Assembly (NCBI RefSeq): GCF_003841405.1
Contig: NZ_PXYA01000002.1
Coordinates: forward strand, 310,001-374,000
Reading direction: 5' to 3'
Length of the DNA stretch: 64,000 nucleotides
Source: Tetragenococcus halophilus subsp. halophilus DSM 20339
Lineage (GTDB): Bacteria; Bacillota; Bacilli; Lactobacillales; Enterococcaceae
In this document: in pieces, positions 56,024 through 60,831 of the stretch
How positions within the stretch are numbered: position 1 is the first letter of the stretch
Layout of the letters: every line of letters starts with the position of its first letter
Translations under genes and position numbers: made by a program
Notes under the pieces: model-generated
What the model was told of the DNA's origin: nothing
The model's input: the letters and a program-made list of their open reading frames with translations, nothing else
The model's database searches: none

Positions 56024-56033
56024 TACTAGAATA

Positions 56034-56101
56034 AAAAGAAAACTAAGCTACTTTACATTTAACACAACAGTTGAATGTAAAGTAGCTTGGTTTCTTTTTT
56101 T
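56034..56101. terminator. Bidirectional terminator between opuCD and proC
   Basis: AAGAAACCAAGCTACTTTAC-type arms on both sides of a short loop form a stem of about 25 bp with T runs at both ends. Confidence 0.92.
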
Positions 56102-56106
56102 GTATT

Positions 56107-57608: not shown

Positions 57609-58724
57609 TCATCCTTTTTCTACATATTCTCTTGGTACACGATTTGAAATTAAGCAAGCCACTTCATAATTATTTGTACCTTTATATGTAGCGATATCTT
57701 GCAAGGTGATTTCATTTGTTCCATCTTTTCCCACTAAGGTTACTTTTGTACCTTCTTTTACTTTTTCCGGCAAACGTACCATGATTTGGTCCATACATAC
57801 ACGTCCTACAACTTCACAGAATTCACCGTTAATCAGTACGTGAAATCCCTGTAGATCACGAGTAAACCCGTCGGCATAACCAATCGGTATGGTAGCAATC
57901 CATTCCTCAGTTTTTGTTTCATAAGTTTTACCGTAACCAATACCATAGCCTTTAGGTAATTTTTTTGTTTGAACAATCTCTGAAACTAGAGAGAGGGCTG
58001 GGACTAAAGGATAAGTAGAAGTAAGTGCTGTTCCGGAAGGATTTAACCCATACATTGCTATACCCAAACGAACCATATTCCCTATGTCCTGATGCCACAT
58101 AGCAGTTGCGCTATTGGCCGTATGAACATACTTAGGTTGATAAGGTAATGTATTTAGTATCTCATTAAAATAACGGCTCTGAGCTTGAAAATATTGTACA
58201 TCTTCTTGGTCAGCCGTAGCAAAATGCGTAAAAATACCTTCCCAATAAAAGTTCTGTTCTTTTTCAATAACTGCTAGTGCTTGTGTTGTTTCTTCTGCAT
58301 TTAAAAAACCGATTCGACCCATGCCAGTGTCTATTTTAATATGTAAATGTAGTGTTAAAGAACTGTCCTTTAAGTATACAGCTGCTTCTTTCAACCACTC
58401 GATCTCTGCCACTGGTACAGATAAGTGATAAGCTGCAGCTAATGCTGCATCAGCCGGAGAAATAATCCCTAAAATAAGAATGGGCTGTGTGATCCCACTA
58501 TGGCGTAATTCTATAGCTTCATCAAGTGTAGCAGTACAAAATCCTTGAGCGCCAGCTTTTAAAGCAACTTTCGCAACAGAAACCGCACCGTGTCCGTAAC
58601 CATCTGCTTTAACTACAGCAAAGATTTCTTTTTCTGGATGACGTTGCTTTTCTTGTACGATATTTTGCCAAATAGCATTTAAGTCGATCACTGCTTTTGT
58701 TGGACGGTGATATGAAATAACCAA
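57609..58724 (-). CDS. alr: Alanine racemase
   Basis: A PLP enzyme that makes D-alanine for peptidoglycan. The 371-residue protein has the PLP lysine in [12 protein letters not shown], the substrate Tyr region [14 protein letters not shown], and [13 protein letters not shown]. The start is TTG at 58724 after AAGGAA. It is normally cotranscribed with acpS, but the IS110 element now separates them. A small hairpin (ACCTG/CAGGT) lies just upstream at about 58770-58785. Confidence 0.95.
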
Positions 58725-58819
58725 AATTCATTTCCTTCTTTCTACTACAATATATTTATGGTTTATAAGACCTGATGAACAGGTTCTTTTATCCAGCTCG
58801 TTGTTTAAGCTGTTATAAT

Positions 58820-58985
58820 GAGGAGGCAATCGGGTATATCGACTTTCTTTCTTGGACTTAGCGTCCGTAATTTAGACTGATAACCCGCACCTCATTTGCA
58901 GCGTTCGTTTTATGCAGGTTGAACTGCTGTCCTACAGTACGTTCGTGTCACACCCCAGTAGATTGAATAGGCAATGAGTCAAACG
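58820..58985 (+). ncRNA. Candidate bridge RNA of the IS110 element
   Basis: Downstream of the left-end TATAAT is a region that can fold into two loops. In the first, CGGGT-A-TATC (58831-58840) pairs with GATAACCCG (58879-58887), enclosing a GGAC/GTCC hairpin (58854-58866); the strand 58867-58875 (GTAATTTAG) can pair with the target 60363-60371 with seven Watson-Crick pairs, one G-U and one mismatch. Further on, ATTTGCAG (58894-58901) is identical to the right end at 60354-60361, TGCAGGTT (58913-58920) nearly so, and ACAG (58934-58937) complements the left end. The expected left-target guide is not recognisable. Extent and fold are inferred. Confidence 0.55.
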
Positions 58986-59027
58986 GGTCTTTATCCATTG
59001 CAATTTTTTTAAAGGAGTGACGAATTT

Positions 59028-60239
59028 ATGAATCGAAACGCTGTAGGTATTGACGTCGCTAAGGGTAAAAGCATGGTAGCTATTCTTCGCCCCTTTGGAG
59101 AAGTGGTTTCTTCCCCCTTTGAAGTTCACCACACCTCCGATGAGATCCGTTCTTTAATTGAACAGATTCAATCCGTTCCAGGAGAAACGCGTATCGTTCT
59201 GGAACATACAGGGCGTTATCATGAACCCCTCGTCCACGAGCTTTCCCAAGCCCACCTCTTTATCAGCCCCGTTAATCCTAAACTGATCAAAGATTTTCGA
59301 ACCCCCTCTCTTCGTAAAGTAAAGTCAGACAAGACCGATGCATTAAAGATCGCCCGCTATGCTCTTGACAGTTGGCCAGAATTGAAACAGTATGGACCTA
59401 TGAACGAAATACGGAATCAATTAAAAACCATGAACCGACAGTTTGACTTTTATATGAAGCATAAAACCGCTATGAAAAACAACTTGATTGGGGTCCTCGA
59501 TCAAACCTATCCAGGAGCCAACGCCTACTTTAGTAGTCCTGCTCGCAATAACGGACACCAGAAGTGGGTAGATTTTGTCACGACTTACTGGCATGTGGAC
59601 TGCGTTCGTCAAAAGACGCTCCCGGCTTTTATCGACCATTACCAAAATTGGTGTCAACGCAAGAAGTACAACTTCAATCCAACAAAAGCGAAAGAAATTT
59701 ATGAAGGCGCTAAGAAGCTTGTTCCTGTACTTCCTAAAGACCCTTTGACTCACCAATTAGTAAAGCAGGCGGTCGAACAATTAAACACGGCTTCCATCAC
59801 CGTAGAGGGACTCCGAACCTTGATGAATGAAACGGCAGCCAAGCTCCCAGAGTACACGATCGTCATGGCCATGAAAGGCGTCGGCCCTTCTCTCGGTCCT
59901 CAGTTGATGGCTGAAATCGGAGATGTGACACGATTTACTCATAAAAGCGCCATCACGGCATTTGCGGGCGTTGATCCAGGTGTGAATCAATCGGGAGCCT
60001 ATGAACAAAAGGGAGTCCGTGCTTCTAAGAGAGGCTCTTCCACCTTACGTAAAACGTTGTTTCAAGTCATGGACGTATTGATCAAGACACAACCCCAAGA
60101 AGATGCCGTCTATCAATTTCTGGATAAAAAGCGAGCCCAAGGGAAGCCCTATTATGTTTACATGACGGCAGGGGCGAATAAGTTCCTTCGCATTTACTAC
60201 GGAAGAGTCAAAGAATATTTAAATGCTCTTTCCCAGTAA
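59028..60239 (+). CDS. IS110-family transposase (DEDD recombinase)
   Basis: A 403-residue recombinase with an N-terminal RuvC-like DEDD domain: GIDVAKGKSM (Asp9), VLEHTGRYHEPL (Glu) and KSDKTDALKIARYA (Asp pair), then a coiled-coil part and a C-terminal domain with the catalytic serine region GVDPGVNQSGAYEQKG. It moves the element through a circular intermediate. The ATG at 59028 follows AAAGGAG. The gene is intact, so the element may be mobile. Confidence 0.94.
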   Translation: MNRNAVGIDVAKGKSMVAILRPFGEVVSSPFEVHHTSDEIRSLIEQIQSVPGETRIVLEHTGRYHEPLVHELSQAHLFISPVNPKLIKDFRTPSLRKVKSDKTDALKIARYALDSWPELKQYGPMNEIRNQLKTMNRQFDFYMKHKTAMKNNLIGVLDQTYPGANAYFSSPARNNGHQKWVDFVTTYWHVDCVRQKTLPAFIDHYQNWCQRKKYNFNPTKAKEIYEGAKKLVPVLPKDPLTHQLVKQAVEQLNTASITVEGLRTLMNETAAKLPEYTIVMAMKGVGPSLGPQLMAEIGDVTRFTHKSAITAFAGVDPGVNQSGAYEQKGVRASKRGSSTLRKTLFQVMDVLIKTQPQEDAVYQFLDKKRAQGKPYYVYMTAGANKFLRIYYGRVKEYLNALSQ

Positions 60240-60362
60240 TTTTTTTCACATACCTCCTCTTTTCAAACCAGCAAAATCGATGGTTCTATTTGTGCTGCTT
60301 AATTTTCTGCACAAAACTTTTTGCCTAAAAGTCTAATTTCCTATTGACTTTTTATTTGCAGG

Positions 60363-60713
60363 CTAAGTTTCCAAAATAATTTGTGCCAAAGCTAAGTCAT
60401 CAGTATGAGTAATGGAAACAAACGCTGTTCCCTCAAACGGTGAAGCAGTGACGACTGGCGCTCCAACCGCGTTGGATAAAACCTCCATTTCCTGAAAAGA
60501 TATTTTTCCAATACCAGTACCCCAAGCTTTAGAAAATGCTTCTTTACAAGCATAACGTCCCCCTAAAAATTCAACTTGTCGTTTGGTGGATAGCTGTGAA
60601 AATAATTGTTGTTCATTTTCAGTCAAAATACGTTGAATCAACTTTGGTTTTTCTTTAATAATTGTTTTAATACGTGCTAATTCGACCACGTCTAGCCCAA
60701 TACCATAAATCAT
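60363..60713 (-). CDS. acpS: Holo-[acyl-carrier-protein] synthase
   Basis: Transfers 4'-phosphopantetheine from CoA to acyl carrier protein. The 116-residue protein has IYGIGLDVVELARI with the metal-binding Asp and the motif LGGRYACKEAFSKAWG with Glu and Lys. Its TAG stop (60363-60365) contains the CT core of the IS110 insertion and is preserved. alr used to follow directly. Confidence 0.95.
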   Translation of the reverse strand: MIYGIGLDVVELARIKTIIKEKPKLIQRILTENEQQLFSQLSTKRQVEFLGGRYACKEAFSKAWGTGIGKISFQEMEVLSNAVGAPVVTASPFEGTAFVSITHTDDLALAQIILET

Positions 60714-60790: not shown

Positions 60791-60831
60791 AAAAAAATGA
60801 TTGAGAAATTTAAATTTCTCAATCATTTTTC
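60791..60831 (-). terminator. Terminator between cshA and acpS
   Basis: AAAAATGATTGAGAAATTT and AAATTTCTCAATCATTTTT form a perfect palindromic stem with T runs on both strands. It ends cshA transcription on the minus strand. Confidence 0.9.

Follow-up and report, generated by a model that had tools for sequence, protein, structure and literature searches.

A candidate bridge RNA in the left end of an IS110-family element of Tetragenococcus halophilus, from a clade whose left target guides often resemble the tail of 16S rRNA

The element, its insertion site and its recombinase

The window, a stretch of 64,000 nucleotides from the Tetragenococcus halophilus subsp. halophilus DSM 20339 genome, contains an IS110-family element between two open reading frames, 57609..58724 and 60363..60713, which we take from their translations to encode alanine racemase (alr) and holo-ACP synthase (acpS), respectively (Table 1). 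The two genes are adjacent in four inspected sister loci; in the window (57609-60713) the pair is split by the 1.6 kb antisense IS. The insertion site is empty in all of these loci (n = 4: G001, G002, G003 and G005, out of 7 sisters with a flank match), with an exact join of the flanks at 58742-58744 / 60363-60365 in G001, G002 and G003 and a 2-base difference in G005. Because the sister empty sites join there, the element is placed between two CT copies; both sides have CT and a third base, A, in common, which leaves the cut point uncertain over 3 bases. Only this CTA is shared across the junction in the empty sites, indicating that the core is short and that no long stretch of the target is duplicated. 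The unoccupied site of G001 reads ...TTCATTTCCTTCTTTCTAAGTTTCC..., the window junctions read ...TTCTTTCTACTACAATA on the left and ...TTTGCAGGCTAAGTTTCC on the right, and the joined empty target site is CCTTCTTTCT-AAGTTTCC. The first-pass annotation began the element and its RNA at 58820; the empty sites place the true end about 76 bases further left, and the outer stem of the RNA is at 58797.

Table 1. Features of the element, its predicted RNA and its surroundings, in window coordinates
Feature	Coordinates	Strand	Basis or remark
alr ORF (presumed)	57609..58724	-	TTG start at 58724; ribosome-binding region is the insertion target
Left target (LT) CCTTCTTTCT	58734..58743	+	Empty sites; overlaps alr Shine-Dalgarno word on minus strand
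Left core copy CT	58742..58743	+	Empty sites; counted in guide matches
IS110-family element minus shared core	58744..60362	+	1619 bp; sister empty sites
-10 box TACAAT	58746..58751	+	Putative promoter formed when element ends join
Bridge RNA, predicted extent	58758..58992	+	Consensus fold (A1) and promoter position
5' stem-loop ACCTGATGAACAGGT	58770..58784	+	Stem-loop kept in relatives with other stems (by eye)
Outer stem, 5' arm	58797..58806	+	Pairs with 58969-58978; consensus fold
Left target guide (LTG) CTTTCTTTCT	58843..58852	+	Tracks LT in relatives
Hairpin GGAC-TTAGC-GTCC in target loop	58854..58866	+	Between LTG and RTG; consensus fold
Right target guide (RTG) GTAATTTAG	58867..58875	+	Final AG pairs with core
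Putative left donor guide (LDG) TGCAGGTT	58913..58920	+	Matches IS right end 60357-60364 at 7/8
Right donor guide (RDG) AGTAG	58957..58961	+	Pairs with left end CTACT 58742-58746
IS110 transposase/recombinase, 403 aa	59028..60239	+	Pfam PF01548 and PF02371 above cut-off
-35 box TTGACT	60344..60349	+	Same junction promoter; 17 bp spacing across joined ends
Right core copy CT	60363..60364	+	Empty sites
Right target (RT) CTAAGTTTC	60363..60371	+	Empty sites
acpS ORF (presumed)	60363..60713	-	Stop codon overlaps right core; IS lies between acpS and alr

The Shine-Dalgarno word of alr is AAGGA (58737-58733, minus strand). A promoter scan found no outward promoter able to drive alr in the left end of the element, and a single promoter-like site on the minus strand (60266-60239; shuffles average 2.6). 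Between acpS and the next open reading frame, the window carries a 38-base inverted repeat (60793-60830, AAAAATGATTGAGAAATTTAAATTTCTCAATCATTTTT) that is conserved in four sister loci and is probably a bidirectional terminator.

The recombinase possesses both DEDD_Tnp_IS110 and Transposase_20 domains, and in an alignment to the IS621 structure 8wt6, read by eye, its D9, E59, D101, D104 and Ser322 (Ser-Gly) lie opposite the IS621 catalytic residues, the roles of which are described in the accessible text of PMC11208158. It thus combines a DEDD RuvC-like N-terminal domain with a C-terminal Tnp domain bearing a conserved serine, the organization of the IS110 group, and the non-coding DNA is likewise distributed as in that group, with 284 bp upstream of the recombinase gene versus 123 bp downstream. 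The window genome encodes one copy of the element, and one of eight other genomes of the genus examined (G005) carries a 99% identical copy elsewhere in the genome; at the level of the family, these two are the only matches at E 1e-80 among 105 genomes. Close relatives (64-79% amino-acid identity) come from records of Lachnospiraceae and other Clostridia, and a search around the genome of one of them found matches in 22 of 397 genomes at E 1e-150. A plasmid collection contributed four distinct records (three found by DNA, three by protein), and viral contigs three relatives of 28-37% identity, which were left out of the tests. Rfam returned no match within the element (four weak miRNA matches lie elsewhere in the window, at 56029-56103) and none in relatives L003, L100, L111 and L138.

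The predicted RNA, its putative promoter and its guides

The region 58760-59000 folds better than its shuffles (z -3.13; a fold as good arose in 1 of 200 shuffled sequences). RNAalifold, applied to an alignment of 28 of 35 non-redundant non-coding regions, gives a consensus of three parts: an outer stem, a donor arm, and a target arm whose hairpin separates the LTG from the RTG. On this structure 96.8% of alignment cells pair, a percentage that is favoured because the structure was derived from the same alignment; two-sided changes are the safer measure, and these number 40 cells versus 10.7 in shuffles and 11 pairs versus 5.6. Pairing falls to 34-46% when partners are slid along, and one of the five measures, further standard pair types, is not above shuffles (36 versus 37.2). 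The two-loop fold is thus preserved by compensatory changes. In the predicted fold, parts of the LDG and RDG segments pair with adjacent bases in helix 6. Part of this helix would bury the RDG; two-sided changes are absent from it, and it is possibly spurious. The 5' stem-loop lies outside the consensus, and relatives form it with stems such as CCTTAC/GTAAGG and CCCATC/GATGGG.

The fold model requires the RNA to start upstream of the outer stem, and its predicted 5' end lies about 7 nt past the -10 box, with the 3' end just beyond the outer stem. The two boxes of this putative promoter meet across the joined ends of the element; in the inserted state the -35 box is displaced from the -10. As sequence, TTGACT-17-TACAAT recurs in 45 of the 49 elements for which both ends are available, a count that a single place enters twice, as L007 and L124, and for which the ends of L111 and of the group ending in CTCCT were set by hand; the remaining four have TAATAT (three) or TTGATT (one). 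The arrangement is similar to the circle-junction promoters published for IS621 (PMC11208160) and ISEc21 (PMC11187229), according to the accessible parts of those papers. Another promoter candidate, TATAATG at 58814-58820, was rejected: its AATG is paired in a conserved stem, and many relatives read TAGAATG.

In the target loop, the LTG is identical to the left target (58734-58743) at nine of ten positions, the tenth being a U-G wobble. The earlier impression that a left guide at 58841-58853 does not match the left flank is superseded, as it arose because the left boundary of the element had been misplaced. The role proposed for 58867-58875 as right guide stands: GTAATTTAG pairs with CTAAGTTTC (60363-60371) through seven Watson-Crick pairs and one wobble, with one mismatch. 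The two guides match opposite strands of the target, and their matches extend into the core; outside it they amount to 7/9 for the LTG and 4/5 for the RTG. The joined empty window (62.4 kb) contains 6804 sites with a CT core, and the element's own site shares the best fit with one other. Because the genome holds one copy, the guides of the window rest on one insertion.

On the donor side, the first-pass annotation proposed three segments. One of them, 58913-58920 (TGCAGGTT), matches 60357-60364 (TGCAGGCT) at seven of eight positions and is kept as the putative LDG. By eye, it changes with the right end in five distant relatives: the base before GCAGG co-changes in L111, L116, L153 and L181, and L114 has GCAAG in both places; L136-L138 and L125 break the rule at one base. 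The identity of 58894-58901 with 60354-60361 (ATTTGCAG) is correct letter by letter, but its assigned role as a donor guide is not upheld: most of the segment is base-paired in the consensus structure, and L136, L137, L138 and L153 keep ATTTGCAG or ATTTGTAG despite a right end of TTAGCAG, so it is probably not a working donor guide. The complement of the left end is AGTAG (58957-58961) rather than ACAG as first suggested, and left end and AGTAG change together in relatives.

This RDG was read in 57 of 62 loci given (L094, L113, L114, L116 and L117 were left unread); in 52 it complements the left end exactly, the left ends being CTACT (44), CTCCT (5), CTATT (2) and TTGCT (1, L177). As for the rest, L153 meets CTCCC through a wobble, a single mismatch is present in each of L128 and L101, and L003 and L104, counted outside the 52 by pattern, have AGTAG on inspection. 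The CTCCT group and L177 are weaker cases: searches turned up no empty site for them, and the alignments that placed their ends were read knowing the RDG. L177 (2250-2618 of that locus, on the E. faecalis plasmid LR962024) is a truncated relative in which the core, read by eye, looks like TT rather than CT, and the core bases of its LTG, RTG and RDG are all altered to fit TT.

Guides and targets across relatives

Fifty-seven loci were read, including the window; the left end and target loop were parsed in 53 (without L113, L114, L116 and L117), and 47 of these also have a usable right flank and formed the permutation-test set, in which some loci are copies that share one guide and have different targets. 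The LTG was scored over 9 bases, with one register shift allowed for real and permuted pairs alike, and the RTG over the 5 bases beyond the core. L153, L154, L175, L176, L177 and L181 were read by eye, outside the permutation test. The RTG matches its own target at 4.13/5, versus 1.94 for the targets of other elements (z 14.7), and the LTG matches at 6.06/9, versus 4.50 (z 9.3; n = 47 insertions, window included, in both cases); 0 of 100,000 permutations reach the observed match of either guide (n = 47). The own target is best or tied in 36/47 cases for the RTG and in 11/47 for the LTG. The RTG fits perfectly in 16 of the 47, with one miss in 24 and two misses in six, and has zero match in one (L131, 0/5). 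Per position, the first five bases past the core match at 0.74-0.87 versus 0.32-0.45 expected, and LT positions -11, -10, -8 and -6 and RT positions 6 and 7 match no better than column composition predicts.

Comparison of the target loop with other insertion sites, as the first-pass annotation had advised, was carried out on relatives and bears out the proposed guide: four copies in G122 have identical guides, and their sites differ yet agree with the guide, which reads CTACT against right targets CTACT, CTACT, CTACA and CTACT. Poor fits include, besides L131, the left targets of L016 and L101 (the latter lacks a right flank and is outside the 47) and that of L003, the nearest relative, whose RTG fits at 7 bases. 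Sister matches to L003 start 150-175 bases into the flank and do not define its empty site. The right target of L003 starts a near-perfect palindrome, CTCAAATGAAAAAA...TTTTTTCATTTGAG (2837-2870 of that locus), and about 55 bases of its right flank (2924-2979) recur in G005, G007 and G008 at 88-95% identity as a small dispersed repeat. The left flank of L106 (1-60) consists of donor-loop sequence from a second copy of that element, but its right flank disagrees with such a site; a nested insertion, a rearrangement or an assembly joint near the contig end may account for this.

CTCC and CTTTCT, which are complementary to Shine-Dalgarno sequences, abound in the left targets. GGAG, GAGG, AGGA or GGAA occurs within 14 bases in 44/52 left flanks, versus 28.7% of 3968 control positions. 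A stricter rule (a Shine-Dalgarno-like word no more than 14 bases away, followed after 3-13 bases by a start codon with an open frame of at least 60 codons, or 25 if it runs off the contig) is satisfied by 35/52 left flanks, or 33/50 minus two duplicates, versus 215/3436 AG control positions on the same strand, 25/2275 on the opposite strand and 31/2328 along the right flank; the Fisher value of 6e-29 is indicative only, because control positions are not independent, and the rule is not data-independent, having been widened in distance and given its Shine-Dalgarno word after the outcome of a looser test. That looser gene-start test, without the word and leaving out L106 for its short flank, is satisfied by 27/52 left flanks versus 23.6% of same-strand and 13.0% of opposite-strand controls, and finds a gene start directly beyond the right junction in only 4/44. 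The weak word AGGT underlies two of the hits, L124 and its duplicate L007, and L136-L138 themselves end in CTCCT, which adds to the apparent word; by eye, their flanks still read AGGAA or AGGAG. Outside the count of 52, the element on the Selenomonas plasmid NC_017078 lies 12 bases from the annotated start of an L,D-transpeptidase gene.

The guides show the same theme. Among distinct LTGs, 25 of 33 share at least 6 consecutive bases with the 16S rRNA tail GGATCACCTCCTTTCT (L109 shares ten). Of the other 13-mers sampled from these regions, 1.4% reach that extent. On average the shared stretch is 6.39 bases long in LTGs and 4.40 in shuffled LTGs; base composition therefore explains part of the likeness. 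A 20-base pattern ending in the 16S tail has 5 occurrences in the genome of the window. In L116 and L181 (relatives of about 44% amino-acid identity), the left flanks, read by eye, end in T-tracts resembling intrinsic terminators (AGCTGCTTTTT, AGCGGCTTTTT), the left guide is GAGCTGCTTTTT or GAGCCGCTTTTT, and this sister clade may target transcription terminators.

Proposed mechanism, alternatives and comparison with known systems

The locus is best read as encoding an IS110 transposase and, next to it, a bridge RNA that carries guides for both target and donor. Taken as a whole, the observations make it highly probable that the left non-coding end encodes a bridge RNA; the element probably acts like IS621, and in its clade a guide resembling the anti-Shine-Dalgarno sequence is likely to steer it. 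The sequence-based part of this model comprises the ends, the two-arm fold, four guide segments that match the target and the element ends, the tracking of partners by guides in relatives, and promoter boxes that would meet only across joined ends. By analogy with IS621, as described in the accessible text of PMC11208160 and PMC11208158, the recombinase would excise the IS as a circle, the circle junction would drive transcription of the RNA, and the RNA would bind the recombinase; the first loop would pair with the target, the LTG with the bottom strand left of CT and the RTG with the top strand on the right; the second loop would pair with the joined element ends; and strand exchange would occur at CT through the RuvC and serine active site. 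Across this clade most LTGs look like the anti-Shine-Dalgarno tail of 16S rRNA, so the element would be steered to ribosome-binding sites, and it appears often to land directly upstream of the Shine-Dalgarno sequence of a gene, oriented away from that gene.

It is extremely unlikely that the matches are due to chance in a structured transposase leader RNA with no guiding role. Each match taken singly is indeed short, at 5-10 bases, and segments had to be picked in the first-pass annotation, but matching to own targets exceeds that of all 100,000 permutations across 47 insertions, the window site ties for the best of 6804, and left end and RDG change together. A recombinase that itself prefers CTCC/CTTTCT-like DNA, with the LTG match secondary and the Shine-Dalgarno placement a protein preference, would account for left targets that are pyrimidine-rich in most copies, for LTGs that match the targets of other copies at 4.5/9, and for positions -8 and -6 at composition level. 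Within that bias, however, the own LTG still matches better (6.06 versus 4.50), and the RTG tracks its target at every one of the five positions past the core, so we regard this explanation as very improbable. The assignment of the element to the IS1111 group, or to an unrelated IS with a different RNA system, is almost inconceivable: DEDD recombinases are common to both groups, but IS1111 elements, which are marked by sub-terminal inverted repeats of 7-17 bp as well, carry their RNA in a longer right end, whereas here that end is 123 bp against 284 bp upstream, and the guides lie in the left end with LTG before RTG, the order reported for the IS110 group in the accessible literature.

Survivorship is an alternative for the excess of Shine-Dalgarno sites in particular, in that insertions within genes would be lost and those just before genes retained. 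By the rule above, 17/52 insertions are off any detected start; the guide thus needs no start, and selection must also act. As the whole explanation survivorship is nevertheless unlikely, because the guides themselves resemble the 16S tail (25/33) and the effect is one-sided, with a gene start beyond the right junction in only 4/44. We consider it likely instead that this IS110 clade, found in Lachnospiraceae, other Firmicutes and the genus of the window, evolved an LTG that mimics the anti-Shine-Dalgarno 16S tail, such that the universal signal for translation start would serve as an address in any genome and drift of the guide among Shine-Dalgarno variants would tune which genes are entered. 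If confirmed, such a guide would explain how one guide theme is kept and targets are found in every host.

The guide RNA, called new in the first-pass annotation on condition that it is real, is new as a member of its class but not as a kind, because bridge RNAs have already been published. The element is a new member of the IS110 group that probably works like IS621. It adds naturally diverse bridge RNAs with mapped guides and ends from Gram-positive gut bacteria, far from IS621 in sequence, and supplies orthologues for testing guide rules, including the remnant L177 with its seeming TT core. Within the accessible literature, a search met no description of a 16S-tail-like guide and, as sole precedent for translation-start targeting, IS900. 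This member of the IS110 family is mycobacterial, and its target is GC-rich and differs from those described here. Going by the title of Doran et al. 1997 (cited in PMC8141618), it reportedly targets translation initiation signals and is said to be linked to expression of its hed gene. The accessible text on IS900 makes no mention of a guide RNA, and the accessible portions of PMC7823733 (Mycobacterium; Shine-Dalgarno, IS110) and PMC3196728 (Amoebophilus) contain nothing bearing on targeting.

As far as the accessible text of PMC11208160 and PMC11208158 describes it, IS621 of E. coli (IS110 group) shares with the element a DEDD-Ser recombinase, a CT core, an RNA in the left end with LTG and RTG in the first loop and the donor loop second, and a junction promoter, the RNA and promoter of the element being predicted ones. 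In contrast, the recombinase of the element is distant by sequence (E 8.6e-17, two local matches), its predicted RNA is longer (about 235 nt versus 177 nt), and its clade targets translation start regions, whereas IS621 targets REP elements. The ISEc21 seekRNA system (IS110 type), in the available part of PMC11187229, resembles the element in its upstream non-coding region, its circle-junction promoter and an RNA with short matches to both target strands, but differs in its target, a conserved region of certain IS3-family elements.
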